Source: Pseudomonadales bacterium | Lineage (GTDB): Bacteria > Pseudomonadota > Gammaproteobacteria > Pseudomonadales > Pseudohongiellaceae | Reading direction: 5' to 3' | Length of the DNA stretch: 15,305 bases | Assembly (NCBI GenBank): GCA_031277435.1 | Contig: JAITMI010000089.1 | Coordinates: 1-15,305, forward strand | Shown here: in pieces, positions 892 to 15,305 of the stretch | Layout of the letters: each line of letters opens with the position of its first letter | Position numbering within the stretch: the stretch's first letter is position 1 | The notes under the pieces: model-generated | What the model was told of the DNA's origin: nothing | Database searches by the model: none | What the model saw: only the letters and a program-made list of their open reading frames with translations | Translations under genes and position numbers: made by a program

Positions 892-1064
892 ATTTTGGGC
901 GGGGCTTGCTTGACGGCCATCAAAAAAGCTCAGCACGCAGCCGCGCAAGGTTGCCAGCGGTAAGCGCCGCGCTGACAATCCGTCTTCACAATTCACAGAG
1001 TGTGCGTGATTTATCCTTCATAACGATGTATTGTGGATCCATCAAATAAGCGGAGGCTTTGCCC

Positions 1065-2486: not shown

Positions 2487-2532
2487 ACGCGGCGGCACGG
2501 TTTAACGGGTGAGCGCAAACTTTTCTCACCGG

Positions 2533-2565
2533 CGCGGCGAAAGGCATCTTTCGCCGCGTTTCCTT
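2533..2565 (+). terminator. Rho-independent terminator after the multicopper oxidase
   Basis: An 11-bp perfect GC-rich stem (CGCGGCGAAAG with CTTTCGCCGCG) has a GCAT loop and is followed by TTTCCTT. It sits 46 bases after the oxidase stop codon and separates that gene from the molybdenum hydroxylase operon. Confidence 0.75.
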
Positions 2566-2712
2566 GTATAAAGTACGGGCTGGACCTTGATTCACCCGGC
2601 GCGCTGGTTTACTTTGAGCCCCTTTCTATATTGGCAGTGTCAGTAGCGACCGTGCGCGGCAATCCGCCACGCACTCTTAATCAACAACCACACAGAACCT
2701 GGGAGAGTTGTT

Positions 2713-3216
2713 ATGGCAACTTTGCGAGTCAATGGTCAAACGCGGGAAATCGGAGATCTCGATCCATCCACTCCATTATTGTGGGTGCTCAGGGATGAGT
2801 TGAATCTCCTTGGCACCAAATACGGTTGCGGCATCGCCCAGTGCGGCGCGTGCACCGTGCATCTGAACGGCGCGCCGGTGCGCTCCTGCCAGATTCCGGT
2901 GGGCAACCTCACTAACGAAGAAATCACCACCGTCGAAGGGCTGGCCGCCGCCGACGGCACGCTGACCGCCCTGCAACAAGCCTGGATCGAAAACGACGTG
3001 CCGCAATGCGGCTACTGCCAGGCCGGCCAGTTGATGAGCGCCACCGCGCTGCTCCGCGACAACCCGAATCCCAGCGACGCCGACATCGACGCCGCCATGT
3101 CCGGCAATATCTGCCGCTGCGCCACTTACGTCCGTATCAGACGCGCCATCAAGGCCGCCGCTGGCGCGACCGCCACCGCCTTCTACGATGCCACCGCTCA
3201 GGGAGCCCGCGTATGA
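2713..3216 (+). CDS. iorA: [2Fe-2S] small subunit of molybdenum hydroxylase (IorA-like)
   Basis: This 167-residue electron-transfer subunit belongs to the xanthine oxidase family (isoquinoline 1-oxidoreductase alpha / CoxS / aldehyde dehydrogenase small subunit type). It carries electrons away from the molybdenum centre. The plant-type cluster cysteines are C39, C44, C47 and C59 in the [11 protein letters not shown] region. The second cluster uses C99, C102 (PQCGYC), C134 and C136 (NICRC). Length and both motifs are complete. GGGAGAG lies just upstream of the ATG. Its stop codon overlaps the start of the large subunit (ATGA), so translation is coupled. It has no signal of its own, so it is presumably carried to the periplasm with the Tat-bearing large subunit. 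Whether the substrate is an N-heterocycle or an aldehyde is not determined. Confidence 0.92.
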
Positions 3217-5534: not shown

Positions 5535-5577
5535 GAGCACGCAACAAGGCCAGCGCAAGCCGGCCTCGCATCACCAG

Positions 5578-5645: not shown

Positions 5646-6725
5646 ATGAAAAACCCATTCCTCTCCCTCCTGCGCACCCTGCACGCCTGGGGCGGCCTTA
5701 CGCTTTGTTTGCTGCTGATGCTGATCAGCTTCACCGGCACCTTATTGGTATGGAAGGACAATTATCTGCGTCTGACGGAGCCAGCGGCGCGCGTGGCGTT
5801 TACGCCAACGCCCGAGGCACTGGCTGTGATTGGCGCGGCGGTGGATCGTCAGTTCGACCCGGCGCAAGTGCTGGGCATACGTTTCGCCACCGAGGAATTG
5901 CCGCTGACGCAGGTGCTGCTCGACGAGGAACGCTATGCCTACCTGGATACGCAAGGCGCGATCATCGACGAATGGCAGGGCAATGGCCGCATCGAGGAAT
6001 GGCTGTTCGATCTGCACCACCGCTTGCTGCTGGGCAATCTTGGCCTCAGCATCGCCGGCATCGCGGGCTGCGCCGCGTTCATTCTGGTACTGGCCGGGGT
6101 AATCGTGTTCTGGCCCATGCGGCGCGGCTGGCGGCATGGCCTCGTGCCGCGCTCCAGCGAGCGGCCCGCCCTGCTCGCCAGCCATCGCAACCTTGGCATC
6201 GTATTGGCCTTGCCGCTGCTCTTGAGCTTCATTACCGGCGCCATTCTGGCCTTCCCCACCCAGGTTGAAGACTGGTACTTGCGCGAGGTTCGCCTTGATG
6301 AGGACTACAGCAACGCCATGGTCGAGGGTCTGGATTCCCTCGAAGGCGCGCAAAACGCCACCTGGCTGACCGCCATGCAGCGCACCGCCGCGGTATTCCC
6401 CGGCGCCACCTTACGTACCGCGCAAGTGCCAAACGCGTTTTCCGCCTACCGCATTCTGGGCGTGCAGCAGCAAAATGAATGGAACCGCTCAGGCATGAGC
6501 CAAGTCTACATAGACACCGACGGCGGCTGGATGGACCTGCGCATCGACGCTCTGAACGCGCCCCTGCCGGTGCGCCTCTTCAACGACGTAACGCCGCTAC
6601 ACACCGCCCGCATCGGCCAGCTCTGGTACAAAGTGCTGCTGACCTTGAGCGGCGCCGGCCTGTTCCTGCTCAGCGCCTTGGGTTTGGTGAGCTTCGTGAA
6701 GCGTTATACGCGGCAGCTTGCGTAG
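5646..6725 (+). CDS. PepSY-associated transmembrane protein
   Basis: The protein has 359 residues with four predicted membrane helices at about 15-36, 135-157, 182-204 and 327-351, and two large loops outside the membrane. This is the layout of PepSY-associated TM proteins (PF03929), found among iron-regulated membrane proteins and membrane reductases. Candidate haem-binding histidines lie near the helices: H13 (TLHAWGG), H124/H125 (DLHHRL), H180 (ASHRN) and H319 (PLHTARIG). The start is ATG 5646, preceded by AAGGA; the longer open frame runs back through the terminator. It could carry electrons between a periplasmic enzyme and the quinone pool or a ferric substrate, but that role is inferred from family and neighbours. 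Its stop codon lies only two bases from the decayed end of the cassette array. Confidence 0.88.
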   Translation: MKNPFLSLLRTLHAWGGLTLCLLLMLISFTGTLLVWKDNYLRLTEPAARVAFTPTPEALAVIGAAVDRQFDPAQVLGIRFATEELPLTQVLLDEERYAYLDTQGAIIDEWQGNGRIEEWLFDLHHRLLLGNLGLSIAGIAGCAAFILVLAGVIVFWPMRRGWRHGLVPRSSERPALLASHRNLGIVLALPLLLSFITGAILAFPTQVEDWYLREVRLDEDYSNAMVEGLDSLEGAQNATWLTAMQRTAAVFPGATLRTAQVPNAFSAYRILGVQQQNEWNRSGMSQVYIDTDGGWMDLRIDALNAPLPVRLFNDVTPLHTARIGQLWYKVLLTLSGAGLFLLSALGLVSFVKRYTRQLA

Positions 6726-6727
6726 CA

Positions 6728-6750
6728 GGGTTGAGCGCAATGCCCGGCCC
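6728..6750 (-). repeat. Decayed attC half-site, distal end of the cassette array
   Basis: GGGTTGAGCGCAATG at 6728-6742 is the same arm (TTGAGCGCAATG) found in the intact sites at 7581-7640 and 13139-13201. The expected GTTAGGC end is replaced by CCCGGCC. The opposite arm is absent, because the PepSY coding region begins there. This marks the left edge of the array. Confidence 0.65.
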
Positions 6751-6752
6751 AA

Positions 6753-7115
6753 TCAAGTGCATGACAAGAACGCATATTCGTCCGGCTCAACCGGAAGCGC
6801 GAATTGGCCGCCTGAATAATCGAGGATGGCCATTGTGTCCAAGAAGTTCAGTCTGAACCCAGACCCAGACACTACTTTTCCGGGCAGATAAGTAGCGGGA
6901 GCAAATTGCCAGCCTTGTTGATTTTTAATTACCCACGCGCGTAGTTGATCATATTGGGGAGAATTTCGCTCCAGCGTACAAGTCACTTCCCCATCAATGG
7001 AATATAGCGAGAGGGTGAGGCTTGCCGTATCAAAACGCTCCACCGGAAAATCGCGATCACGATCACACCCGGCAAGACAAAGGGCGGCAAACAGCAATGA
7101 AGGAAGTTTAATCAT
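6753..7115 (-). CDS. Small lipoprotein, cassette-borne, function unknown
   Basis: The product has 120 residues with a lipoprotein signal peptide: MIKLPSLLFAALCLAGC, lipobox LAGC with the lipidated cysteine at 17. Aspartates follow the cysteine. The mature part looks like a compact beta-rich domain with two further cysteines, CTLE near residue 46 and LSCT at the C-terminus. I do not recognise the family. It is the most distal cassette in the array (last in the direction of transcription) and its attC is decayed. The ATG at 7113-7115 begins a few bases after the previous half-site, as is usual for cassettes that carry little untranslated leader. Confidence 0.75.
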   Translation of the reverse strand: MIKLPSLLFAALCLAGCDRDRDFPVERFDTASLTLSLYSIDGEVTCTLERNSPQYDQLRAWVIKNQQGWQFAPATYLPGKVVSGSGFRLNFLDTMAILDYSGGQFALPVEPDEYAFLSCT

Positions 7116-7122
7116 AGGTCAC

Positions 7123-7147
7123 ACCTAACAGTTCACATAAAAGGCCC
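7123..7147 (-). repeat. Partial attC (L'/R' half)
   Basis: ACCTAACAGTTCACATAAAAGGCCC carries the RYYYAAC core and the CACATAAAAGGCCC arm seen at 11299, 13683 and 14303. The matching GTTRRRY arm is not recognisable, because the coding region that ends at 7148 has taken its place. Confidence 0.6.
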
Positions 7148-7366
7148 TTAAGTATTTTTTGGGAGCCGTTTCTGATAATCGCGTATTTTGCGCGCGAGTT
7201 CTTTGCGTAATATATTTTCAAGTCGAATAATCTCGGATTTTACTTCTTGGGCCGGCAATTGAGACGAAAGTAATTTATTGAATACTTCCATAAGCAATCC
7301 CTTGGTTTTATATTCAAGCGCACTCTCGCTATTAGTAATTCCTTGATCCCTATCTGGCGAGTACAT
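7148..7366 (-). CDS. Small helical protein, second gene of a two-gene cassette
   Basis: The predicted product has 72 residues, is highly charged and probably all-helical. Its second half (EVKSEIIRLENILRKEL) looks like a short coiled coil or helical hairpin. No family is recognised. It starts 3 bases after the stop of the CPCC gene with no attC between them, so both genes lie in one cassette and are probably co-translated. A later methionine at residue 26 (MEVFNKLL) is an alternative start. Its stop abuts the partial attC. Confidence 0.55.
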   Translation of the reverse strand: MYSPDRDQGITNSESALEYKTKGLLMEVFNKLLSSQLPAQEVKSEIIRLENILRKELARKIRDYQKRLPKNT

Positions 7367-7369
7367 TAT

Positions 7370-7573
7370 TCAGTATTTAAGAAAATTTTGACGCGCTTCC
7401 GTCAGTGAGTAGCCTGAGTTCGGGCCTCCTCTTACTTCATCTGCGTTGGCATCTCCTTGCCCACTATCTTCCCAGCCGCACAATTCACAGATATCGTAAC
7501 TCCCCATTTCATCCAGAGTCGGATAACCGCAACAAGGACAAACAAAACGAGAATGGAGTGGAGAGTTTGGCAT
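7370..7573 (-). CDS. CPCC family cysteine-rich protein
   Basis: The protein has 67 residues and matches the Cys_rich_CPCC family (PF14206): a FVCPCCGYPTLDEMGSYDIC segment followed by LCGWEDSGQGDANADEVRGG and YSLTEARQNF. Cysteines 12, 14, 15, 29 and 32 form a probable zinc-binding knuckle. The family is widespread, of unknown biochemical role, and is often found near toxin or immunity genes; that association is general knowledge, not shown here. The length is complete. It is the first gene of a two-gene cassette whose attC lies past the following small gene. Confidence 0.9.
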   Translation of the reverse strand: MPNSPLHSRFVCPCCGYPTLDEMGSYDICELCGWEDSGQGDANADEVRGGPNSGYSLTEARQNFLKY

Positions 7574-7580
7574 TTGTGAT

Positions 7581-7640
7581 ACCTAAGGCCCTAGCCAGCC
7601 GACGACCCTAGGCCGCCCGGCTTGAGCGCAATGTTAGGGC
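7581..7640 (-). repeat. attC recombination site, 60 bp
   Basis: The plus-strand ends are ACCTAAGG (7581-7588) and GTTAGGGC (7633-7640), with the CGGCTTGAGCGCAAT arm inside. The middle, GGCCCTAGCC...CCTAGGCCGCC, is self-complementary and forms the variable stem. It terminates the WGR-DUF4240 cassette. Confidence 0.88.
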
Positions 7641-7643
7641 CAT

Positions 7644-8411
7644 TCATGTTGGACGCCGGTTTCCTGGCGGAATACTTTCGTCAGTATACTTCCCCGAGCG
7701 AGTCGCCACGGTTGGCGCCCACCCCGCCACATTCTGAAAACTTTCGTAACTAACGGGCGTGGTGTGTTCGTATTCGTTACCGGTTTTTCGCTCATAGGCG
7801 ATAACGGGCAATGAGAGTAGGGATTCGAATTCCATGTCTTGTGGCATTTTCTCTGGATTATTTAAAACCGACGCATAAAAATTTTCCCCGTTTGCAACTA
7901 CAACGCATCGAGAATAAAGAAAATCGTCTGGAGAAATGTAGTCATCACCATCATCTGGGTCGAGCTCTCCTCTATAACAGGCACGACAGTATTCCCGCGT
8001 ATCCAGTGCATGTAATTTTTCCGCCAGGATATCTTCAAATTTATGAATTTCCACCACGCTCATTTGAGCCAATGCTTTGACAACGGGCTCAAGCACGACG
8101 GAATCATCTCCTGTTTTCTTCCAGTTCAGGAGAGCGATTAGACGCCAGAACACCTCCTCCGTCATTGCCATAGTTGACCACTCGGGGTTTTTATAAGGTG
8201 GAGCCACACCCTCAATGTAGTCGTTTTTGAGCTTTGACGCGATCAATCGCTCGAATTCCTTTTGTGCTTCGGATTCAGTAGCAAAAGTCTTTTTTGTTTC
8301 CCGCGCCCGCGCGCCAACACGTCCGTTAGCGGTCACAAGTTCCGTACCCATGCACTCAATCGTCCAGAATTTGTTTGAACGATCATCTTGAAAATAAAAC
8401 TCTCGTTTCAT
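7644..8411 (-). CDS. WGR domain plus DUF4240 protein
   Basis: The predicted 255-residue protein has two recognisable parts. Residues 1-75 are a WGR domain (KREFYFQDDRSNKFW, TANGRVGARARETKKTF, EFERLIASKL), the module that in PARPs and bacterial proteins contacts nucleic acid. From about 88 to 230 it matches DUF4240 (PF14024): MTEEVFWRLIALL, a VEIHKFEDILAEKLHALDT helix, SPDDFLYSRCVVVANGENFY and a proline-rich stretch. The reading frame extends to an ATG at 8435. I chose 8411 because the WGR domain classically begins MKREF and AAAGG lies just ahead. DUF4240 proteins are common beside polymorphic toxin or immunity loci. This is one of the largest cassettes here. Confidence 0.85.
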   Translation of the reverse strand: MKREFYFQDDRSNKFWTIECMGTELVTANGRVGARARETKKTFATESEAQKEFERLIASKLKNDYIEGVAPPYKNPEWSTMAMTEEVFWRLIALLNWKKTGDDSVVLEPVVKALAQMSVVEIHKFEDILAEKLHALDTREYCRACYRGELDPDDGDDYISPDDFLYSRCVVVANGENFYASVLNNPEKMPQDMEFESLLSLPVIAYERKTGNEYEHTTPVSYESFQNVAGWAPTVATRSGKYTDESIPPGNRRPT

Positions 8412-8500
8412 CGCCTTTGCTCTGAATGTCAGCATTCTCGATGGCTACTCCCATCTCGAAGAAAGAACTTTCGTTTTCTAATCGCATTACCGTCATTGAT

Positions 8501-8535
8501 GCCTAACGCTTCAGGGATTGAACGCCATGTCAGGC
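8501..8535 (-). repeat. Compact attC-like site, 35 bp
   Basis: GCCTAAC (8501-8507) and GTCAGGC (8529-8535) are canonical ends. Between them CGCTTCA pairs with TGAACG around a 5-base loop. The site lacks the longer variable stem of its neighbours. Confidence 0.7.
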
Positions 8536-8586
8536 CGCCGCCGCTAGCACGCGACCCGTACCCTTTGCGCCGCCCTCCCATACACA

Positions 8587-8625
8587 GACTAACGCTCAAA
8601 TTAACCCGCAGCGAAATGGTTGCTC
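8587..8625 (-). repeat. Degenerate attC overlapping the end of the DUF1801 gene
   Basis: GACTAACGCTCAAATTAACC (8587-8606) is clearly the L'/R' arm shared with the sites at 9105, 12377 and 12926. The opposite arm is reduced to AATGGTTGCTC. The stop codon of the DUF1801 gene lies inside it at 8601-8603. Confidence 0.6.
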
Positions 8626-9068
8626 TGAATAGCCAGCTTCTTGCGCAAGTGGTATGTGAGCGAAGCAGATATGCAAAACGCCACTGCATCTTTCGGGATG
8701 CGCTCACCCACCTTGAACACCAATGCACGCTTGCCTTCAAACTCGAAGTCGTTGGGGAAAAGGGTTCGGAAGGTTTCGACCAGGTTGGTCTGGCAGTGGA
8801 AATACAGGGCGAACTGCTCTGGTTTTTTTGGCTTCCAGTCAATTCGAACCGTACTGCCGCTTTTAGTGGCCGAAGTGATGTACGCGGGCTCACCCCACCT
8901 AAGCGCTTCCTCGATTGGACCGACCCCTTCCGTGTCTGCCGCAGCTTGGAAGATAAGCTCACGAAGCTCCAGCATACTGCTGCGCACTTTATCCGGGTAG
9001 CGCTCGAACACGCGCTCAACGGCTGCGTTGCCGAACGGCGTGAGCTTGTTCTTCGAGCGTGCAGTCAT
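8601..9068 (-). CDS. DUF1801 (YdhG-like) domain protein
   Basis: The protein has about 155 residues and fits DUF1801 (PF08818): MLELRELIFQAAADTEGVGPIEEALRWGEPAY, then a beta-rich core with FALYFHCQ and a C-terminal FKVGERIP helix region. The family has a small alpha/beta fold and no established enzyme activity. Start choice: an upstream TTG at 9083 is in frame, but ATG at 9068 gives MTARSKNKLTPF, a normal N-terminus. The last codons and the stop run into the degenerate attC, so the C-terminal few residues may be attC-derived rather than family sequence. Confidence 0.85.
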   Translation of the reverse strand: MTARSKNKLTPFGNAAVERVFERYPDKVRSSMLELRELIFQAAADTEGVGPIEEALRWGEPAYITSATKSGSTVRIDWKPKKPEQFALYFHCQTNLVETFRTLFPNDFEFEGKRALVFKVGERIPKDAVAFCISASLTYHLRKKLAIQSNHFAAG

Positions 9069-9104
9069 GGCGCGTAATCTCAATAGGACAGTGGATGGTT
9101 TTTA

Positions 9105-9148
9105 GCCTAACGCCTAAATTAACCGGCGCCCTTATGGCATTGTTAGGC
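9105..9148 (-). repeat. attC recombination site, 44 bp
   Basis: GCCTAAC (9105-9111) and GTTAGGC (9142-9148) are perfectly complementary ends. The CGCCTAAATTAACCGG arm matches most sites of the array. The central stem is short. Confidence 0.9.
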
Positions 9149-9158
9149 AATTGTCCAG

Positions 9159-9443
9159 CTAGTTGTTTTTTAATAACCATATTGTTGTGCCTTTCGGTAA
9201 TTGTATTTTGTCGGTTATTTCGCCGAATAGAAGGCCAATGTTTCGCGTATTCCCAAAGCATTTCGTAAAAAAATCAACGCCTGTTAAGTGAGTTACGAAC
9301 GCCTTTCCATCTGGCTGAATGACTTCAATTTGATCTCCAACGTCCAGCCTCTGACTCTCATCAAACCATACGCCGATGACAACAGTTCCCCGATCTGCAA
9401 TCGAAAACGAATCCTCAACCACTGTGATCTGCGCCCTGTTCAT
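9159..9443 (-). CDS. Stand-alone EF-Tu domain-2-like beta-barrel protein
   Basis: The 94-residue product resembles domain 2 of translation elongation factor Tu and nothing else. VEDSFSIADRGTVVIG near residues 8-23 corresponds to the VEDVFSI.GRGTVVTG strand-turn. LDVGDQIEVI corresponds to the next strand. TGVDFFTK, then NIGLLFGEI and LPKGTTIW, follow in the EF-Tu order. The GTPase domain and domain 3 are absent, so it cannot bind GTP like EF-Tu. Start ATG 9443 is preferred to an upstream TTG that lies in the neighbouring attC. Such a free barrel might bind a partner that normally contacts EF-Tu, but this is speculation from fold alone. Confidence 0.75.
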   Translation of the reverse strand: MNRAQITVVEDSFSIADRGTVVIGVWFDESQRLDVGDQIEVIQPDGKAFVTHLTGVDFFTKCFGNTRNIGLLFGEITDKIQLPKGTTIWLLKNN

Positions 9444-9445
9444 GA

Positions 9446-9482
9446 GCCTAACTACCAATAGACGGCTAAATTTAAGTTATGC
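9446..9482 (-). repeat. Short degenerate attC, 37 bp
   Basis: The ends are GCCTAAC (9446-9452) and GTTATGC (9476-9482). The body, GACGGCTAAATTTAA, differs from the common arms. The stop codon of the next gene lies inside it. Position and ends fit a cassette boundary, but pairing of the arms is weak. Confidence 0.6.
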
Positions 9483-9780
9483 ACTGGCATGGGGAGGAAA
9501 CTAACTGAAAAGTTTTAACGATAGGCTCCATGTAAGCAGATGCCATGCCACTTGAAACTTTTAGTTCTACCAATTTTTGCTCGCCAGTGGATTCGTGCCA
9601 CATTTCAATTGAACTTCCATCTTTACATGACTCCCAGATCGAACTTTCGGCGCAAAGGTTCATGTAGTGCCACTGCCCCTCACTCTCCGAAAGACCTTCC
9701 CAGATAGCGCGGAGTAGTTCTTGATGTCTCTCGAATGCCCGCCATCCACACGCTGGCTCAAATGCAACCCAGTTGCTCAT
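9472..9780 (-). CDS. Cassette-borne hypothetical protein
   Basis: The product has 102 residues. It has no signal peptide and no membrane segment. It is rich in tryptophan and glutamate (WVAFEPACGWRAFERHQ, AIWEGLSESEGQWHYMN, SSIEMWHE). It looks like a compact alpha/beta protein with four cysteines that show no zinc-finger spacing. No family is recognised. The ATG at 9780 is 8 bases from the next attC. Size, isolation and cassette context are those of a free-standing soluble factor such as an immunity or accessory protein, without further evidence. Confidence 0.65.
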   Translation of the reverse strand: MSNWVAFEPACGWRAFERHQELLRAIWEGLSESEGQWHYMNLCAESSIWESCKDGSSIEMWHESTGEQKLVELKVSSGMASAYMEPIVKTFQLVSSPCQCIT

Positions 9781-9787
9781 GTGATTA

Positions 9788-9846
9788 GCCTAGCGCCTAA
9801 ATTAAACCGCCGCCAAAGACGGCCTCGCTTGAGCACAATGTTAGAC
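9788..9846 (-). repeat. attC recombination site, 59 bp
   Basis: GCCTAGC (9788-9794) and GTTAGAC (9840-9846) flank CGCCTAAATTAAACCGCC and a GCTTGAGCACAAT arm. The variable stem GCCGCC..AAAG..GGC folds between them. Read on the minus strand, it is a close match in layout to the ~60-bp class of attC sites such as that of aadA cassettes. Confidence 0.92.
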
Positions 9847-9855
9847 CAAGCACAT

Positions 9856-10323
9856 TCATAGGGAATCAGGCCGCCATTGATTGATGCCATCCTGTCTTTC
9901 CAGAGTGGCGATGCGCCAAACCTTACCGCGCTGCTCCAGTGTAAAGCGAAATGATGGCGAGTTTGGTTTCTTTTGTTCCGTGATGACCCTGCATAAGTTT
10001 TTGCCAATAACTTCTTCCGTAGCAATTTTTGCATAGGCATTCGCAGTTCCATTGACAAAGAAATAACCCACGGAGCGCCAGTATTGCCTGTTTTTGGATG
10101 TGCAGTATCTGGACTGGATTTGAACCAACGCATCCCGGCCACCTGCTTGCTTGAGACCTTCGAGATTGTCTCCATTTTGCTTTAACCAATAGCGGCAATC
10201 TTGCGCCCACTTCTGGAAGGCTTGAATGTACTCAGTAACGGTATCCGCCGCGCTCCGATCTTTTTCTTCATGCGCTGACACCAGATATTTGCCAGGATCA
10301 AACTCAGTCACCAATGCCCCCAT
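9856..10323 (-). CDS. NTF2-fold immunity-like protein
   Basis: The protein has 155 residues and resembles the NTF2-fold immunity proteins of polymorphic toxin systems (PF15655). It has an N-terminal helix TVTEYIQAFQKWAQDCRYW, then IQSRYCTSKNRQYWRSVGYFF, and a C-terminal strand pair FRFTLEQRGKVWRIATLER typical of NTF2-like barrels. In such systems the protein binds and neutralises a partner toxin nuclease or deaminase. No toxin gene is adjacent, so it would be an orphan. The assignment rests on pattern resemblance, and a generic NTF2-like/SnoaL fold is the alternative. The ATG at 10323 is two bases from the next attC. Confidence 0.55.
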   Translation of the reverse strand: MGALVTEFDPGKYLVSAHEEKDRSAADTVTEYIQAFQKWAQDCRYWLKQNGDNLEGLKQAGGRDALVQIQSRYCTSKNRQYWRSVGYFFVNGTANAYAKIATEEVIGKNLCRVITEQKKPNSPSFRFTLEQRGKVWRIATLERQDGINQWRPDSL

Positions 10324-10325
10324 AT

Positions 10326-10385
10326 GAGGGAAAAGCCAAAATCAACCGGACGGCGAAGCCGTCCGAGTTGAGCATAATATTACTC
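10326..10385 (-). repeat. attC site with decayed ends, about 60 bp
   Basis: The inner arms are well preserved: AAAATCAACCGGACGGC and CCGTCCGAGTTGAGCATAAT, with a strong GGACGGC/GCCGTCC stem. The terminal boxes have drifted to GAGGGAA and ATTACTC. It may no longer be an efficient recombination substrate. Confidence 0.75.
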
Positions 10386-10388
10386 ACT

Positions 10389-10826
10389 TTACTCAATTGC
10401 CTGTAGTGTTATTTGAGCGCCATCTGGGAGATCGTTGATTTGGCGCGCAATATCACCAGAAAAACGCACAAGCTCGATGAGCGGCGCGGTGGCAAGGTTA
10501 TCTCCTCCATATTCGCCACCTAAAACACCAGGAATTTTTAAGCAATATTTTCTCCCTTCGCTCAAAGGCCCGCATTGCGTGTTTGCGAGAGAAATAAGAT
10601 TTTCCATATACCAATCTTCGAGAAATTCTTGATCTTTCAACACCACATCAAGTTCCGCGCGATTCTCGGCAATGACCTCGCAGTAGCAATCTTCAGGACA
10701 CAGCCGCCAATATCTTCCGCTTTTGTCTTTGATGATAAGATTACCAAAATCATTTTCTCCAATGACCTCAACCGGCTCAATGCCAACCCAACTCCAAGAC
10801 TGGAAAATTTCTTCAACGAGTTCCAT
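10389..10826 (-). CDS. Tdi1-type T6SS immunity protein (DUF1851 C-terminal domain)
   Basis: The protein has 145 residues. The C-terminal part, LKIPGVLGGEYGGDNLA followed by ELVRFSGDIARQINDLPDG, fits T6SS_Tdi1_C (PF08906, DUF1851). This domain is found in Tdi1, the immunity protein for the Tde1 DNase of the type VI system. The N-terminal part has GIEPVEVIGENDFGNLI and YWRLCPEDCYCEVIAE, as in GAD-like/DUF1851 proteins. The frame is open 90 codons further upstream, but ATG 10826 has AGGAATC ahead and begins the conserved part; the extension would translate a cassette boundary. No cognate effector is nearby, so it is an orphan immunity gene. DUF1851 also occurs outside T6SS. Confidence 0.8.
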   Translation of the reverse strand: MELVEEIFQSWSWVGIEPVEVIGENDFGNLIIKDKSGRYWRLCPEDCYCEVIAENRAELDVVLKDQEFLEDWYMENLISLANTQCGPLSEGRKYCLKIPGVLGGEYGGDNLATAPLIELVRFSGDIARQINDLPDGAQITLQAIE

Positions 10827-10844
10827 GTGATTCCTGCGTGACAA

Positions 10845-10899
10845 GTCTAAGGCCAAAATTAACCGGCGCGCACGAAATGCGCGTCCTGCCTTGTTAGGC
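10845..10899 (-). repeat. attC recombination site, 55 bp
   Basis: GTCTAAG (10845-10851) and GTTAGGC (10893-10899) bracket the common GCCAAAATTAACCGG arm. A GCGCGCAC...GTGC-like central stem lies between the arms. The stop codon of the next gene is inside the GTTAGGC box. Confidence 0.88.
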
Positions 10900-11283
10900 G
10901 ATGGCAGAGAACAAATAGTGCTCGCCTTCATGGTTTGCATAGTAGCCCGCATTGACGCTTGGGAAAAAGATCGCGGCATCTTCACCACCTTGTTCAAGAA
11001 AGACCGATAGCGCAACTCTTTGGCCATCCAATTCGCTTCTGGCCGCCAAAACGTAGCCGGCCTCTTTAACTCCCAACCGCTTAAAATGGTCAACAACTAC
11101 TGCCTTCGGATCAACGGCATTTAATATCGGAGTAAATTTCTTCATGTCCAGATGCCGGGTGTCGTGTAACAAGTCCCAGAGCCCGTCAGACCGCCTCTTT
11201 GCATTAGCTAGAAGACTCAAGTAGCGATCTCTCCTTTCGCGTTTCACGAATGTAGAAATAAATTTATCCAGATCTTCAGTCAT
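10894..11283 (-). CDS. Cassette-borne hypothetical protein
   Basis: The product has 129 residues. The N-terminal half is helical and basic (FISTFVKRERRDRYLSLLANAKRRSDGLW). The C-terminal half looks like an alpha/beta domain with AGYVLAARSELDGQRVALSVFLEQ and a tyrosine-rich end, NAGYYANHEGEHYLFSAIA. No family is recognised. Start MTEDLDKF at 11283 is preferred; the open frame before it reads through attC sequence. The last codons, including the stop, use the GCCTAAC of the attC (AIA then TAA), so the site supplies the stop codon. Confidence 0.65.
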   Translation of the reverse strand: MTEDLDKFISTFVKRERRDRYLSLLANAKRRSDGLWDLLHDTRHLDMKKFTPILNAVDPKAVVVDHFKRLGVKEAGYVLAARSELDGQRVALSVFLEQGGEDAAIFFPSVNAGYYANHEGEHYLFSAIA

Positions 11284-11298
11284 ATGGTGACTATTATC

Positions 11299-11382
11299 GC
11301 CTAATGGCTTACATAAAAGGCCCACGGCAAGGGCGAACTCGACCCGCCACCAAAGGCGGCCGGCTTGAGCGCAATATCAGGC
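11299..11382 (-). repeat. attC recombination site, 84 bp, alternative L' arm
   Basis: GCCTAAT (11299-11305) and ATCAGGC (11376-11382) are the ends. The right arm, GGCTTGAGCGCAATATCAGGC, is the common one. The left arm, GGCTTACATAAAAGGCCCA, is the alternative type shared with 7123, 13683 and 14303. An internal CCGCCACCAAAGGCGG hairpin is present. It is the longest site of the array. Confidence 0.85.
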
Positions 11383-11384
11383 GC

Positions 11385-11912
11385 TTATTGCGCCAATATT
11401 TTGTTAAATTTGAATACGATATAACCATTTACTATGGAGAAATTTTCAGACACAAACTGAGCCGTCCATGAGGATGCTGACTCAGGGGCATACCCCACAG
11501 ATGATATATGCCTATTTATCTCCAGATCTCGTATTAGCCCTAAATCAGAGAGGTTTTTTTCAATAACGGAAATTTCTTTTGCTTTTGGCTTTTTTATTCT
11601 TGCGTTGTATATACAATCTATGGCTGACGGCTCATATTCACGGAATTTTTTATATAATTCCTCATTCTGAGAAATGAATAAATTCACCTCACTTTTTTCA
11701 GATGAGCTTAATGGCGTGATAAGCGATGGATCGCAGCACTGCTCTTTGAAGGACGGCTTAAATTTGTTTGTGACAAAACACTTGGAAAATATGGTTACCG
11801 CGTCTTGCTCAAGACCCGTAACAGGATTTTGGCATTTGTACTCAAGTACGCGATATATCTGCCATATCCCGGCCCGATGACTTTTTACCCAATCTCCAAC
11901 TTTCAAGGACAT
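11385..11912 (-). CDS. Cassette-borne hypothetical protein with SH3-like N-terminus
   Basis: The 175-residue protein begins SLKVGDWVKSHRAGIWQIYRVLEY, a pattern of short strands typical of SH3- or KOW-like barrels, although no family is certain. The middle is helical and charged (EKSEVNLFISQNEELYKKFREYE, KKPKAKEISVIEKN). The end is strand-rich (SIVNGYIVFKFNKILAQ). Codon use is more AT-rich than in its neighbours, suggesting a separate origin. ATG at 11912 with AGG about ten bases upstream is preferred to the GTG immediately before it. It starts 29 bases after the previous attC. Function unknown. Confidence 0.65.
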   Translation of the reverse strand: MSLKVGDWVKSHRAGIWQIYRVLEYKCQNPVTGLEQDAVTIFSKCFVTNKFKPSFKEQCCDPSLITPLSSSEKSEVNLFISQNEELYKKFREYEPSAIDCIYNARIKKPKAKEISVIEKNLSDLGLIRDLEINRHISSVGYAPESASSWTAQFVSENFSIVNGYIVFKFNKILAQ

Positions 11913-11941
11913 CACCTGCTTCCTTCTGGCCGATGCGTGGA

Positions 11942-11991
11942 CGACCTAACGCCGAAATTCGAAATGCGCGTCTGGGTTAACGCCTTATCAG
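11942..11991 (-). repeat. attC recombination site, 50 bp
   Basis: The left end is ACCTAACGCCGAAATTCG and the right end is GTTAACGCCTTATCAGGC (box TATCAGGC at 11984-11991). The middle, AATGCGCGTCTGG, forms a poor stem. It ends the BamE-like cassette. Confidence 0.8.
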
Positions 11992-12008
11992 GCACAACGC
12001 CAACTAAA

Positions 12009-12370
12009 CTAACGAGCGTAGTAACACGTAACATTCGTGACAATATTACTTCGGCTAAAGAAAAATACGAGTTGCGGAAAGCCGCCTCCAAACTGATGCG
12101 GCGGAACAGGGCTTGTAAAGAAATAGCCCCACTCATCGTTATTGCCTATATAGTCTGGCTCTCCAAGCGTACCTTGCACCTGATCGCGCCGCAGCCCTAC
12201 AAGCAATTTTTTTCCTCTGGACAGCGGCTTTTAGTAACAGCACCTACTGGTAAAGAACGCAGGCTCTTTAGCTCCTGCGCCAAGTTATCAAGTAACGATA
12301 AATTTGGTTCCGCGCGCAAAGGGGCCGCCATGACGAGAAAAATCAATACATATTTAGAATAGCGACACAT
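12009..12370 (-). pseudogene. BamE/SmpA-like exported protein split by a frameshift at an A7 run
   Basis: Two overlapping frames together give one sensible protein of about 120 residues. From ATG 12370 the first frame encodes a signal peptide (SKYVLIFLVMAAPLRAEP) and a helical linker (LSLLDNLAQELKSLR), and stops at TAG 12197-12199. The second frame continues with LVGLRRDQVQGTLGEPDYIG, then DEWGYFF and GGGFPQLVFFF, and ends at 12009. The RDQVQGTLGEPD part resembles the BamE/SmpA-type fold. The frames join if the ribosome slips -1, or if one A is added, at seven As (T7 on plus, 12207-12213). It may be a mutation, a sequencing error or slippage. It lies as one cassette between two good attC sites. 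Confidence 0.65.
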
Positions 12371-12376
12371 GGTATA

Positions 12377-12433
12377 GCCTAACGCCTAAATTAACCGATA
12401 AAGAAGCCGTCTGGGTTGAGCGCAATGTTAAAC
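12377..12433 (-). repeat. attC recombination site, 57 bp
   Basis: GCCTAAC (12377-12383) and GTTAAAC (12427-12433) flank the common arms CGCCTAAATTAACCG and GGGTTGAGCGCAAT. Confidence 0.9.
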
Positions 12434-12446
12434 CAACGAATCATGC

Positions 12447-12905
12447 TCAAGCCAACATGGCGGTAATTTTATTGTAGACGGCGACTACTTCAGCGGAGGC
12501 CGGCCCACTCATTGATGACGGCTCAGCGGATTCCGCCTTTTCAAAAAGCTGCTCGGCGATAGCCTCGATACCCGCAACATTGCCAGACAGAAATTCAGAC
12601 CACCCTTCCAACGCCAGCATGGCCGCCAATAACTCCGCCTGCATATTACCCTCAAATTGACCGCCATTATCAATGCGCTCAACCCATGCCAGGACGGCTT
12701 TGCCAGTCGCGGTGCTATACCCGGCACGCGCCTCATGAAAAGCAGCCAATCCATCTTTATTTAATTCGCCACTATGATCGATATCGCTAAGCGTGGGGTC
12801 GTTAATTAAGGTTGCCAATGCCGACTCCGCGAATTGCCGTAAGCGGGCAGGCTTGGCCTTGTTAATTACCTTATTAGCGCGCTCAACTACTGCTTCATAC
12901 TGCAT
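12447..12905 (-). CDS. Cassette-borne all-helical hypothetical protein
   Basis: The 152-residue product is predicted to be almost entirely helical. It has a basic N-terminal helix (VVERANKVINKAKPARLRQF), an acidic turn (DPTLSDIDHSGELNKDG) and two long helices (LLAAMLALEGWSEFLSGN, IEAIAEQLFEKAES). There is no signal peptide or membrane segment. I do not recognise the family. The general form recalls small helical immunity proteins, but no specific motif proves it. AGAGGA lies eight bases before the ATG at 12905. Intact attC sites border it on both sides. Confidence 0.7.
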   Translation of the reverse strand: MQYEAVVERANKVINKAKPARLRQFAESALATLINDPTLSDIDHSGELNKDGLAAFHEARAGYSTATGKAVLAWVERIDNGGQFEGNMQAELLAAMLALEGWSEFLSGNVAGIEAIAEQLFEKAESAEPSSMSGPASAEVVAVYNKITAMLA

Positions 12906-12925
12906 GAAAAATCCTCTGGATACCC

Positions 12926-12980
12926 GCCTAACACCTAAATTAACCGGGCACAGGCGTCCGGGTTGAGCATAATGTCAGGC
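12926..12980 (-). repeat. attC recombination site, 55 bp
   Basis: GCCTAAC (12926-12932) and GTCAGGC (12974-12980) flank the arms ACCTAAATTAACCGG and CCGGGTTGAGCATAAT. The CCGG..CCGG stem is strong. The end of the small membrane protein gene runs into it. Confidence 0.9.
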
Positions 12981-13147
12981 GGATAAATATGGAACTTCAC
13001 CAAAAAGAATAGAACACAGGGGAAAACAATGGCCGCAACGCAGGCGCCGATTAATGCACGGCCCGCGCGAATCGCATGTAATAGTTCATAAAAAAGCCCC
13101 TTTTTCTCCAAGTGATCGAGGGGAATATGATTGATCTGGCGGCTCAC
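12935..13147 (-). CDS. Small single-span membrane protein
   Basis: The predicted product has 70 residues with one strong hydrophobic segment at about 31-53 (LIGACVAAIVFPCVLFFLVKF), preceded by a basic amphipathic helix (LEKKGLFYELLHAIRAGR). This suggests a cytoplasmic N-terminus. The start is uncertain: GTG at 13147 lies inside the upstream attC and no good ribosome site is seen. The last 12 or so residues (from NPDACARLI outward) are encoded by the downstream attC, so the gene occupies the cassette from one site to the next. Small membrane proteins of this type are common in cassettes. Function unknown. Confidence 0.5.
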   Translation of the reverse strand: MSRQINHIPLDHLEKKGLFYELLHAIRAGRALIGACVAAIVFPCVLFFLVKFHIYPPDIMLNPDACARLI

Positions 13148-13201
13148 ATGAAAGGCCCATAGCCGCCGCCAAAGGCGAGCGGCTTGAGCGCAATGTCAGG
13201 C
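13139..13201 (-). repeat. attC recombination site, about 63 bp, one end decayed
   Basis: The right arm, GGCTTGAGCGCAATGTCAGGC, ends at 13201 and is typical. The left arm, GGCTCACATGAAAGGCCCATAG, is the alternative type, but its RYYYAAC box is not recognisable. An inner GCCGCC..AAAG..GGCGAGCGGC stem is present. Confidence 0.75.
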
Positions 13202-13209
13202 GCACGCAT

Positions 13210-13662
13210 TCATGCCCCGACAGGCAGGCGGCTGGAAATGGCGATGCGGTTCCAGGCGTTGATAACTACCGCTAGCCATTCAATAGCGGATATTTCGTCT
13301 TTCGATAACGTATTGGCCGCCCGTTCATAAACGGCATCGGGCACTTGTCCGTCGGATATCAGGGTGATGGCTTCCACGAGCGCTAATGCCGCTCGCTCTT
13401 TGGGACTGAAGTAGCTGGTTTCCCGCCAGGCGGGGAGCACGGCGATACGATCATGCGGCTCGCCGCCGGCAAGAGCATCGCGCGTATGCAGCCTGACGCA
13501 AAAAGCGCATTGATTGATCTGAGACCCGCGCAAACGCAAGAGATGCGAGAAGCCATTTTCGATGCCAGCCTGCGCGATAGCTTCTGAGGCGAGCTGATCA
13601 AGCGCGGCTACTGACTGATACAGGGCCGGCGCGCTCTTGCCAAGGTTAACTCTTTCGATCAT
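13210..13662 (-). CDS. AhpD-like carboxymuconolactone decarboxylase family protein
   Basis: This 150-residue protein is of the alkylhydroperoxidase/CMD family (PF02627). The active-site motif is complete: LLRLRGSQINQCAFCVRLHTRDA, with redox cysteines C52 and C55 and histidine H59. A second conserved helix (SPKERAALALVEAITLI) and the C-terminal VVINAWNRIAI also fit. Members reduce peroxides or serve as small oxidoreductases, usually as oligomers in the cytoplasm. The GC content is higher than that of several neighbouring cassettes and close to the backbone. It is a normal-length, intact gene with ATG at 13662. It is the only clear enzyme in the array. Confidence 0.93.
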   Translation of the reverse strand: MIERVNLGKSAPALYQSVAALDQLASEAIAQAGIENGFSHLLRLRGSQINQCAFCVRLHTRDALAGGEPHDRIAVLPAWRETSYFSPKERAALALVEAITLISDGQVPDAVYERAANTLSKDEISAIEWLAVVINAWNRIAISSRLPVGA

Positions 13663-13682
13663 GTGAATATCTCATGTGATGC

Positions 13683-13758
13683 GCCTAAGCTCGCATAAAA
13701 GGCCAGACCCATAGCCATTTTCCATATTTAAACGTCCGGACTGAATACCTCGTCAGGC
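13683..13758 (-). repeat. attC recombination site, 76 bp, alternative L' arm
   Basis: GCCTAAG (13683-13689) and GTCAGGC (13752-13758) are the ends. The left arm, CTCGCATAAAAGGCCAGACC, is of the CATAAAAGG type. The right arm is less typical (GACTGAATACCTCGTCAGGC). The in-frame extension of the next small gene runs into it. Confidence 0.75.
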
Positions 13759-13793
13759 TCGCCCGTAGATGACACCTCGTATACGTGCCACTG

Positions 13794-13931
13794 TTATTGA
13801 TATTCATATGAACGAGCTAAGTCTAAAAGAGTGCGCCAATCCTTTAGCTCCGCCTTATACAGATACACATCACGAAGTGAGCCATCTTGAATCCATAGAT
13901 CGCTTGGTTGTTGCATGGATGGACGATTCAT
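13794..13931 (-). CDS. Short cassette protein, possibly truncated by an in-frame TAA
   Basis: ATG 13931 opens a 45-codon frame (MNRPSMQQPSDLWIQDGSLR, then YLYKAELKDWRTLLDLARSY) ending in TAA at 13794-13796. In the same frame, after the TAA, a further 21 sense codons (QWHVYEVSSTGE, then PDEVF) run to a second TAA at 13728-13730. This suggests that the original protein was about 67 residues and has been cut by a nonsense mutation. The SDLWIQDGSLRD segment followed by a tryptophan-leucine helix looks like a real folded family, but I cannot name it. The cassette between the two attC sites holds nothing else. Confidence 0.5.
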   Translation of the reverse strand: MNRPSMQQPSDLWIQDGSLRDVYLYKAELKDWRTLLDLARSYEYQ

Positions 13932-13939
13932 GATTCTTA

Positions 13940-13987
13940 GCCTAAGGCATAAATTAACCGGCGCCGAAGGCGGGTTGAATGTTAGGC
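13940..13987 (-). repeat. attC recombination site, 48 bp
   Basis: GCCTAAG (13940-13946) and GTTAGGC (13981-13987) flank GCATAAATTAACCGGCGCC and GGCGGGTTGAAT, with a GCGCC..GAA..GGCG stem. Confidence 0.9.
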
Positions 13988-13997
13988 CATAACCGAT

Positions 13998-14291
13998 TCA
14001 TTGCTGCCATGCTTCCTCTACATTGGCGAGAACTTCGCAATCACAGTGACCACCGTAGCTGCCGAGCCAAGGAATAATTTTAGCCTCTGGCAAAGCATTG
14101 GTTTGAAGAAATTGGCGTGTGAGCTTGAGGGAATGATCGCAGCCAGTTTCCAAGGCACTGTCCAGATAGTCGAACAGTTGAGATAGCTGACTCTGTGAAA
14201 TTGGCATTGACGCAACTGCTTCGGCTTTCTGTCTCTGCACAATTTCAAGGACTATCGCCTTGCGGCGCTCTCGTTCAGTTTTTGAAGTCAC
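13998..14291 (-). CDS. DUF2695 family protein
   Basis: The 97-residue protein matches DUF2695 (PF10905): LFDYLDSALETGCDHSLKLT, then RQFL, and the cysteine-rich WLGSYGGHCDCEVLANVEEA at the end. The CDH and HCDC cysteines and histidines suggest a bound metal. Role unknown. The start is GTG at 14291, six bases after a good AAGGAG. The N-terminus is a basic helix (TERERRKAIVLEIVQRQKAE). It is the first cassette in the direction of transcription, next to the array edge. Confidence 0.9.
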   Translation of the reverse strand: MTSKTERERRKAIVLEIVQRQKAEAVASMPISQSQLSQLFDYLDSALETGCDHSLKLTRQFLQTNALPEAKIIPWLGSYGGHCDCEVLANVEEAWQQ

Positions 14292-14302
14292 TTAATCTCC
14301 TT

Positions 14303-14333
14303 GCCTAACCGCCCACATAAAAAACCCATAGCC
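14303..14333 (-). repeat. Half attC or attachment-site remnant at the proximal edge of the array
   Basis: GCCTAAC (14303-14309) is followed by CGCCCACATAAAAAACCCATAG, the alternative arm type seen at 7123, 11299, 13139 and 13683. No GTTRRRY partner follows; the sequence runs into a terminator. An attI site would be expected here in a complete integron, but there is nothing to identify one. Confidence 0.65.
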
Positions 14334-14343
14334 CTTTCCATGC

Positions 14344-14371
14344 AAAAAGCCCGGCAAAGGCCGGGCTTTTT
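14344..14371 (-). terminator. Rho-independent terminator of the ankyrin gene
   Basis: AAAAAGCCCGGC and GCCGGGCTTTTT form a long stem around a short loop, with T tracts on both strands, so it can act bidirectionally. It follows the ankyrin gene and stands between it and the first cassette, which is on the same strand. It should limit read-through into the array. Confidence 0.88.
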
Positions 14372-14393: not shown

Positions 14394-15305
14394 TCAGTTC
14401 AAATCGAGTGGGTTGTAATCCACTGAACAGACTTCGACGATGCAGATCGATTCCAGGGTGCGGCCTTCGGGCGGGGTTTCGATGCCGGCGTCGATCATGA
14501 GTTGGCGCAGCACCGCCGCCGTTTCGGGGTGTGGGATGGCGGATTGCACGCCGACGCGCACCAGGCCGTCGGCGTAATCGATCGCCTGCCAGGTGTGGGC
14601 GGCCAGTTCGGGGCTGCCGCGGTTGTCGGTGTTGCCGAAGTCACGCAGGTCCATGCGGGCGCCGGCGGCTACCAAGAGTTTTACCACTTCGGTGGAGCCT
14701 TTGTGCGCGGCGCCGTGCAGCGCCACTCTGCCGGTATTGGCCTGGTAATTGGGGTCGATGCCCAGTTCCAAGAGCAGCTTGACCGCTTCCACCGTCTGCG
14801 CGGTCGACCATTCGTTGGTGACGCCTTCGACCCAGCCGATGCCGGCGGCTACCGCCAGCGGGGTCACGCCCAGGTTGGTGTTGATGTAGGGATCGGCGCC
14901 GTAGCTGAGCAACAGCTTCATCAAGGGCAGATCGCCGGACTGCGAGGCGCGCAGGAACGCGGTGGCGCCATCTTCATCCAGCCATTGGTTGGTGAACACG
15001 GTGCGGGTTTCCGAGCTTTCGACCATGCGCGCGTTGGGATCGGCGCCCTTGTCGAGCAAGAGCTTGATGTATTCCAGGGAATCCATGTCAGCCATGCGCG
15101 TCGGGTAGTCGCCGCCTTCGATATTGCGGTTGTCGGTGGCCAGATACAGCGGCGTCCAGGCGCCTTTGTTGGCCAGATTCACGTCAGCGCCGTTTTCGAT
15201 GAGGAACTTGCCCATCTGGTAGTTCTGGTTTTGCGTGGCGGCCAAGAGCGGGCTCCAACCGTAGCGCGTGGTCTGGTTGACGTCGGCGCCGGCATCCAGA
15301 AGAAC
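14394..15305 (-). CDS. Ankyrin-repeat protein (partial, 5' end outside window)
   Basis: The frame is open from the window edge to a TAA at 14394, giving 303 residues of C-terminal sequence. Repeats of the ankyrin pattern are clear: LLDAGADVN, LIENGADVNLANKGAWTPLY, KLLLDKGADPNA, LPLMKLLLSYGADPYINTN, VKLLLELGIDPNY, RVALHGAAHKGSTEVVKLL and VAAGARMDLRD. Two repeats carry long inserts, as is common in bacterial exported ankyrin proteins. The tail (CIVEVCSVDYNPLDLN) is outside the repeats and has two cysteines. These proteins mediate protein binding; the partner is unknown. High GC and lack of attC place it in the chromosomal backbone. Whether it has a signal peptide cannot be seen. Confidence 0.92.
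   Translation of the reverse strand, partial: VLLDAGADVNQTTRYGWSPLLAATQNQNYQMGKFLIENGADVNLANKGAWTPLYLATDNRNIEGGDYPTRMADMDSLEYIKLLLDKGADPNARMVESSETRTVFTNQWLDEDGATAFLRASQSGDLPLMKLLLSYGADPYINTNLGVTPLAVAAGIGWVEGVTNEWSTAQTVEAVKLLLELGIDPNYQANTGRVALHGAAHKGSTEVVKLLVAAGARMDLRDFGNTDNRGSPELAAHTWQAIDYADGLVRVGVQSAIPHPETAAVLRQLMIDAGIETPPEGRTLESICIVEVCSVDYNPLDLN

Follow-up and report, generated by a model that had tools for sequence, protein, structure and literature searches.

The window analysed here, the whole of contig C123 (15,305 bases), belongs to the metagenome-assembled genome (MAG) G000 of a Pseudomonadales bacterium, a bin of 2.13 Mb in 408 contigs with a completeness of 73% and a contamination of 0.9%. 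Between a PepSY-associated gene and an ankyrin-repeat gene it carries an array of about 16 integron cassettes, made up of 18 small open reading frames (ORFs) that all lie on the minus strand with about one attC site each, and it contains no gene for an integron integrase (IntI, gene intI). An initial annotation had described this region as a cluster of attC sites lacking an integrase (CALIN), a description that our analysis supports. The features of the window, with scores from the covariance models R1, R2 and R3 presented below, are as follows (aa, amino acids).

5646-6725, plus: chromosomal gene for a PepSY-associated transmembrane protein, distal border (PF03929, E 8.9e-39; 69% identity in the relative G005, where the neighbours differ)
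6728-6751, minus: half attC, R''-L'' side, distal end (by eye; repeat family D1; overlapping R3 match at E 5)
6753-7115, minus: cassette gene, 120 aa, lipoprotein-like by eye (ORF; no Pfam match)
7122-7147, minus: half attC of the second arm type, L'-R' side (by eye; repeat families D5/D7; unscored by the models)
7148-7366, minus: cassette ORF, 72 aa (no Pfam match)
7370-7573, minus: cassette gene, cysteine-rich CPCC protein (PF14206, E 6e-20)
7581-7639, minus: attC (R1 20.2 bits; R3 23.3 bits, E 2.3e-4)
7644-8435, minus: cassette gene, WGR + DUF4240 (PF05406, PF14024)
8501-8535, minus: short attC (R3 22.1 bits, E 5e-4)
8587-8634, minus: weak or half attC (R1 15.1 bits, E 0.055; unsupported by R3, E 2.3)
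8601-9083, minus: cassette gene, DUF1801 (PF08818, E 1e-9)
9105-9148, minus: attC (R3 24.0 bits, E 1.4e-4)
9159-9458, minus: cassette gene resembling positions 205-284 of EF-Tu, in the centre of that protein (best E 2e-7 with the NCBIfam models for EF-Tu, far short of their cut-offs)
9472-9780, minus: cassette gene, 102 aa (ORF; weak sub-cut-off Pfam match only)
9788-9846, minus: attC (R3 41.3 bits, E 2e-9)
9856-10323, minus: cassette gene, NTF2-fold immunity protein (PF15655, E 7e-11)
10328-10385, minus: attC with decayed R' (R3 41.9 bits, E 1.3e-9)
10389-10829, minus: cassette gene, C-terminal domain of a Tdi1-type immunity protein of the type VI secretion system (PF08906, E 2e-14)
10845-10899, minus: attC (R1 54.9 bits, training site; R3 13.7 bits, E 0.11)
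10894-11283, minus: cassette gene, 129 aa (ORF; no Pfam match)
11299-11382, minus: longer attC, second arm type (R3 22.3 bits, E 4e-4)
11385-11915, minus: cassette gene, 176 aa (ORF; no Pfam match)
11944-11993, minus: attC (R3 16.7 bits, E 0.017)
12009-12370, minus: cassette holding a pair of overlapping ORFs (57 and 65 aa), which may be a single interrupted gene (weak sub-cut-off BamE match, E 0.011)
12377-12433, minus: attC (R3 62.1 bits, E 3e-15)
12447-12905, minus: cassette gene, 152 aa (ORF; no Pfam match at E < 0.1)
12926-12980, minus: attC (R3 57.2 bits, E 7e-14)
12935-13147, minus: cassette ORF of 70 aa that by eye resembles a membrane protein and overlaps the attC at its end (weak sub-cut-off match)
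13136-13201, minus: attC, second arm type (R1 15.3 bits at 13134-13201; R2 26.0 bits at 13148-13201; R3 19.0 bits, E 0.004, at 13162-13201)
13210-13662, minus: cassette gene, carboxymuconolactone decarboxylase (CMD)/AhpD family (PF02627, E 8e-15; TIGR00778 over cut-off)
13684-13758, minus: attC of the second arm type, degenerate (by eye; repeat family D7)
13794-13931, minus: small cassette ORF, 45 aa (no Pfam match)
13940-13987, minus: attC (R3 39.2 bits, E 8e-9)
13998-14291, minus: first cassette gene, DUF2695 (PF10905, E 4e-18)
14304-14330, minus: half attC, L'-R' side, proximal end (by eye; repeat family D5; unscored by the models)
14344-14371, minus: hairpin of the ankyrin gene resembling an intrinsic terminator, at whose outer edge homology with relatives ends
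14394-15305, minus: ankyrin-repeat gene forming the proximal border, truncated where the contig ends (PF00023 and others)

The identification of the attC sites relied on covariance models that we built ourselves (not IntegronFinder's own attC model) and used in place of simple motif scans, which were uninformative. R1 was derived from seven clean window sites whose R''/R' and L''/L' pairs were assigned by hand. It gave 13 matches in the window at E < 0.1, seven of them training sites, all on the minus strand between 7581 and 13987; beyond its training set it matched C185 (62, 55 and 44 bits), C160, C393, C165 and C403 of the same bin. R2 was trained on 20 sites (8 from the window, 11 from elsewhere in the bin and 1 from G005, the closest relative genome), and R3 on 29 G005 sites alone. 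As these 29 sites were gathered using R2, 8 of whose 20 training sites come from the window, R3 provides a test without window letters, yet not without window influence. R3 found 11 matches at E <= 0.017 and a 12th at E 0.11, at the same places and on the same strand; the next match, which is the 13th site of R1 (8587-8634), had an E value of 2.3 and lay at noise level. The initial annotation had named two findings that would overturn its reading, a covariance search scoring none of the sites and an intI gene just outside the window at the proximal end; as to the former, both R1 and R3 scored the sites as attC. Where it gave about fifteen two-ended sites, we count 12-14, together with about 16 cassettes as first proposed. 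The degenerate two-ended site at 13684-13758 is visible by eye and was missed by the models. The three half or decayed sites it reported agree with those that we see by eye at 6728-6751, 7122-7147 and 14304-14330, and the sites share their arms and differ in their central stems as it stated.

Both R1 and R3 recovered imperfect palindromes with pairing R''/R' and L''/L' boxes, and paired changes pointed the same way. Among the 29 G005 sites, 24 cells were altered on both sides, against a mean of 11.4 after shuffling (none of 500 shuffles was as high), and controls with a slid structure on the same alignment gave at most 16 doubly changed cells. Covariation was weaker in the R2 set (8 against a shuffled mean of 3.3, with 5 of 500 shuffles as high). 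Since both alignments were fitted to the model structure, the covariation result leans in the model's favour.

The consensus of attC sites at the crossover is AAC...GTT. We observed an attC subclass with AAT...ATT, in which both sides are changed together. In G005, 25 sites have letters at both positions of the crossover pair, which was T-A at 10 of them, C-G at 8 and mixed or unpaired at 7; in the R2 set (n = 18), it was C-G at 10, T-A at 2 and unpaired at 6. Very similar AAT/ATT sites lie on C62, C294, C170, C179 and C328, the R' of C179 being altered. AAT/ATT sites of G005 are found in the loci L110, L111, L112, L114, L119 and others.

In an integron, attI and intI normally adjoin the first cassette. 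As first annotated, the window holds no integrase gene, and the ankyrin gene with its terminator occupies the proximal (high-coordinate) side where intI and attI of a complete integron would be found. The genome-wide search for intI that the annotation had proposed returned no match to TIGR02249 in the bin at E <= 0.001, and tblastn of the G005 IntI against the window and ten contigs of the bin gave a best E value of 0.28. The locus therefore has the make-up of a CALIN, with at least two attC sites (12 at E <= 0.11) and intI absent from the window and the bin sequence, within the limit set by the contig end, which falls 0.9 kb into the ankyrin gene. As the bin is 73% complete, the term CALIN labels the locus and is no proof that the cell lacks IntI. 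This incompleteness and the contig end 0.9 kb past the array leave some room for an ordinary integron, with intI past the ankyrin gene, or with intI in the portion of the genome that the bin lacks and attI facing the array. An IntI over the cut-off is present in four of the ten further members of the genus (and in 20 of all 57 genomes searched, own bin included). We nevertheless regard an ordinary integron as improbable: what adjoins the first cassette is a terminator and a gene shared by the genus, not attI and intI, and a half attC terminates the array at this point.

The same attC type lies beside intI in two other genomes. In G005, contig C324 carries an intact intI (463 bits against a cut-off of 265) 114 bases from its end, and on C20 (locus L109) a decayed intI, in pieces between 448 and 1250 on the minus strand, is followed by a GTTAGGG motif, a 111-aa ORF and an attC on the plus strand (2042-2097). 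In L003, from another family of the order and present in no training set, an attC on the minus strand (1031-1086; R2 36 bits, R3 35 bits) and an intact intI on the plus strand (1501-2445) stand in the normal divergent layout.

The guanine-plus-cytosine content of the array is 48.4%, compared with 62.3% and 62.9% in the flanks, and accepted ORFs cover 84% of it. On the distal side, two bases separate the end of the PepSY gene (6725) from the start of the half attC (6728); on the proximal side, the array begins directly behind the terminator of the ankyrin gene. This gene has matches with 83-89% identity in nine of the ten further genus members, and the DNA alignments of the window end at 14344 with G005, G009 and G006 and at or near the end of the ankyrin gene with the others. 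A profile search with an ankyrin alignment yielded 79 relative loci; the query comprised five members, one of them in the wrong strand reading (30% identity to the window), which weakened it. A similar hairpin was seen by eye behind the ankyrin gene in 7 of 18 relative loci (two of the 18 show only two bases there), and R3 found no attC at E <= 1 in the best 20 of the 79 loci (L201 and L205 excluded). A match to Brucella sRNA 120 over the terminator (26.5 bits, cut-off 114), the sole RNA-family match, is weak and was taken as chance. In G005, the PepSY gene is inverted and has other neighbours, so that the gene order before the array cannot be read; a profile search of genome contigs with the PepSY gene gave no matches. 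A block of genes at 1059-5534, presumably for a multicopper oxidase-like protein and a two-subunit oxidoreductase-like protein, is found in the same order in G005, with 82 and 84% DNA identity over 1143-5566. The genus is very rich in ankyrin-repeat genes, with up to 42 matches per genome, some in tandem.

In a MAG of 408 contigs, attC repeats might have joined cassettes to unrelated flanks during assembly, or some attC contigs might be foreign. The latter concern applies to C185, whose cmk gene is 47% identical to that of C214, giving two different cmk genes in one bin, and whose aroA-cmk flank is not conserved in the genus; C185 may be foreign and was not used for the argument on dispersal below. 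As an explanation of the array, we regard such an artefact as improbable: both flanks of the window match the genus (the PepSY protein at 69% and the 1143-5566 DNA at 82 and 84% to G005, the ankyrin gene at up to 89%), and a separate bin, G005, carries the same attC type on many contigs.

The initial annotation had also recommended a search for further arrays with the same attC type, and sites of this type were found on nine other contigs of the bin. In our survey of the genus set (11 genomes, G000 and ten others), up to 150 candidates were scored per genome, so that counts are lower bounds. With R2 at E <= 0.01, there were at least 25 matches on 10 contigs in G000 (10 of them in the window), at least 28 on 21 contigs in G005, and none among the candidates scored in the other nine genomes. 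In a draw of 79 family genomes, surveyed with stricter filters, the 77 others included 5 with one or two matches (best E 1.7e-5). Within the bin, arrays also occur beside or close to pbpC (C160), gshA (C393), rpoN (C293) and a WG-repeat gene (C403). The presence of one attC type on ten contigs with differing chromosomal neighbours indicates that the cassettes are scattered over the chromosome, though some of the ten could be pieces of one locus.

Of the 21 attC contigs of G005, 8 exceed 10 kb and carry one scored attC (C62, C170, C179, C328, C349, C66, C166 and C241). Two single-cassette insertions of G005, at loci named from Pfam matches, face empty sites in relatives. At glmU-glmS, the flanks are 25-189 bases apart in all seven genomes in which both were found (G000, G001, G002, G003, G004, G009 and G010; one flank in G006, none in G007 and G008), compared with 700 bases in G005. 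Between rpmF and fabD, they are 134-214 bases apart in all eight such genomes (G000, G001, G002, G003, G004, G007, G009 and G010; G006 and G008 unmatched), compared with about 670 or more in G005. By eye, a terminator-like hairpin follows rpmF in the four genomes viewed and was not seen before the G005 cassette. On G005 C66, near 21223-21431, lies a repeat of about 200 bases that is not an attC; it has about 60 partial matches in G005, whereas the remaining genus members gave no match.

The array was co-oriented with the preceding gene at all ten loci at which that gene had a Pfam name and was taken to be chromosomal, a set selected from 31 attC contigs (the window, ankyrin gene; C403, WG-repeat gene; G005 loci behind guaA, glmU, rpmF, valS and genes for a glucosaminidase, a YncE-like protein, TrmO and a DUF3999 protein). 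Outside this set, the ORF on G005 C253 is unnamed and runs in the opposite sense, and C241 has an IS-like ORF (IS, insertion sequence) in between; C305, C294 and C177 are ambiguous, as the gene with a name could be part of a cassette, and the remaining contigs start inside an array or were left unclassified. A shared direction of arrays and preceding genes is thus a hint only. A bolder proposal, to which we give somewhat less than an even chance, is that the cassettes form a gene family dispersed over the whole chromosome: an integrase would have seeded them, singly or as small arrays, at about 20 places, often behind co-directional housekeeping genes, with neighbouring operons serving as expression platforms. 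As many sites carry covarying AAT/ATT instead of AAC/GTT, the crossover specificity of the integrase may also be relaxed or shifted.

We considered the possibility that the array is a displaced piece of one sedentary chromosomal integron, broken up by inversions, insertion sequences or homologous recombination between attC sites, with intI left elsewhere. The initial annotation had put forward a rearranged large integron next to the CALIN, and with the same attC type on nine other contigs of the bin we retain this alternative, which we judge unlikely, yet the most serious of the competing explanations. It would account for the half attC sites at both ends of the array, the differing gene order around the PepSY gene in G000 and G005, the presence of one cassette with its attC on both C403 and C370, and the running of several other arrays of the bin into contig ends. 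It would also fit the IS110/IS1111-like end that abuts attC, near the L'' arm, on five G005 contigs (L112, L117, L118, L126 and L127). The ORFs in L126 and L127 gave partial matches, under the cut-off, to the IS110 transposase model NF033542; an IS ORF had weak matches only in PDB, and tblastn in plasmids returned distant IS110 transposases, all with less than 60% identity. What break-up does not predict are single cassettes within glmU-glmS and rpmF-fabD, where the flanks are otherwise in order.

We favour, as probable, the reading that the window is a true cassette array without an adjacent integrase and that its cassettes, like those elsewhere in the genome, were scattered by the integrase of the lineage into attC sites and sites outside attI. 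A number of observations weigh against it. The bin in which intI was not found is 73% complete. On C324 of G005, about 10 kb separate intI, at one end of the contig, from the two attC matches at the other. Among 18 intI-bearing loci of other genomes, only L003 had an R2 attC match at E < 0.1; the tie between attC and intI thus comes from G005 and L003, and the models are lineage-bound. The flanks of the window are not found side by side in any relative, so that an empty site could not be read for the window itself, and at glmU-glmS and rpmF-fabD the exact attG-type junction is unreadable because the intergenic stretches have diverged. Empty-site comparisons at two more G005 loci were uninformative: at valS, the right flank is not conserved, and at guaA, the query lay beyond the gene. 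Direct insertion of cassettes would not leave a terminal half attC, and deletion or rearrangement has to be added. Finally, a crude motif count gave no separation (4 in the array, with a simulated mean of 1.85 and a maximum of 10 in 200 runs), and single-strand DNA folding gave z scores above -2 in 12 of 15 stretches, the other three scoring -2.6, -2.65 and -5.4.

These last two results, together with the richness of G005 in other repeats, are what one might expect if the palindromes were terminators, repetitive extragenic palindromic elements or other intergenic palindromes. We consider this ruled out for practical purposes by the strict bias to one strand, the conserved R boxes with paired changes, the matches beside intI in two other genomes and the small accessory genes between the sites.

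If the favoured reading is right, an integron integrase of the lineage, intact in G005 and here encoded elsewhere, unbinned or lost, would have acted in trans. Folded attC sites of circular cassettes would have recombined with other attC sites and with attG-like chromosomal sites outside attI, and the cassettes would have landed behind chromosomal genes. The array of the window would have grown by insertion of attC into attC and later decayed at its ends, giving rise to the half sites. Integron cassette genes mostly lack their own promoters; those here may be transcribed by run-through from their neighbours or from promoters of their own, and the process may be active to this day.

Seven of the 18 window cassette ORFs have Pfam names above the cut-off (CPCC, WGR+DUF4240, DUF1801, NTF2-fold immunity, Tdi1-type immunity, CMD/AhpD and DUF2695). 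Among ten cassette proteins of other arrays of the bin, six had a match at E <= 0.01; four of these were over the cut-off (SUKH on C185, DUF2262, DMP19 and DUF4240) and two below it (a second SUKH-like protein and the integron cassette protein Hfx_Cass5). None of the ten window cassette proteins tested matched a PADLOC defence family. A role in competition would be in keeping with the families linked to polymorphic-toxin immunity (Imm-NTF2 and Tdi1_C in the window, SUKH on C185). The bin holds a duplicated stretch, C403 5587-6165 and C370 12857-13435, with a cassette gene, its attC and the start of another gene, which we take to be FitA-like. In G005, proteins with a beta-lactamase domain are encoded shortly before attC at L111 3135-3581 and L115 1591-2589, possibly as cassette genes. 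At two separate places of the chromosome, L112 (C134) and L114 (C170), attC is followed by nearly the same 89-aa ORF, compared over its first 60 residues.

The locus resembles CALINs in having at least two attC sites, small same-strand genes and no neighbouring intI, and there is no essential difference; here, attC sites lie on ten contigs of one bin. Several G005 loci, with one scored attC and one cassette, are like the single attC sites lacking an integrase (SALINs; PMC12690207), and two such loci here have empty sites in sister genomes. CALINs have been described at seven loci outside ilvD in Xanthomonas, relatively conserved across species, and contrasted there with the broad distribution seen in E. 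coli (PMC12444791). The Xanthomonas CALINs are similar to ours in occupying several chromosomal loci away from intI; there the loci are relatively conserved, whereas both G005 loci tested are empty in G000 and 9 of the 11 genomes of the genus have no match to this attC type among the candidates scored. The G000/G005 pair looks closer to the broad kind of distribution of E. coli than to that of Xanthomonas. Integration at attG (Loot et al. 2024, cited in PMC12444791 and PMC12901181), the experimental precedent for the favoured reading, reportedly brings cassettes into chromosomal sites that are neither attI nor attC, as we propose here; that work was experimental in E. coli, whereas no such junction is readable in our genomes. 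IS1111 elements target attC (Tetu and Holmes 2008, Post and Hall 2009, cited in PMC11187229), which recalls the IS110-family-like ends on the five G005 contigs, with the difference that here the transposase ORFs are partial and sub-cut-off and none was seen in the window. A published warning is that CALIN counts come out too high in draft genomes and that assembly is made harder by attC sites that resemble one another (PMC9024848). This caution applies here, yet it does not explain single cassettes in long contigs with empty sites in relatives. Among the papers listed in our literature searches on integron cassettes, no title concerned these MAGs.

The CALIN/SALIN kind of locus is already known, and it is the breadth of the spread and the empty sites that are of interest. 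CALINs are common, and they may be either remnants of lost integrons or results of insertion outside attI. With two sister genomes that carry scattered cassettes, the intact and decayed intI of G005 and the sites found empty in seven and eight relatives, the choice between the two becomes directly testable, as both the IntI and the sites are available. If true, the proposal of a dispersed gene family would mean that cassette insertion outside attI has occurred in nature on a large scale and has been caught here together with its empty sites.

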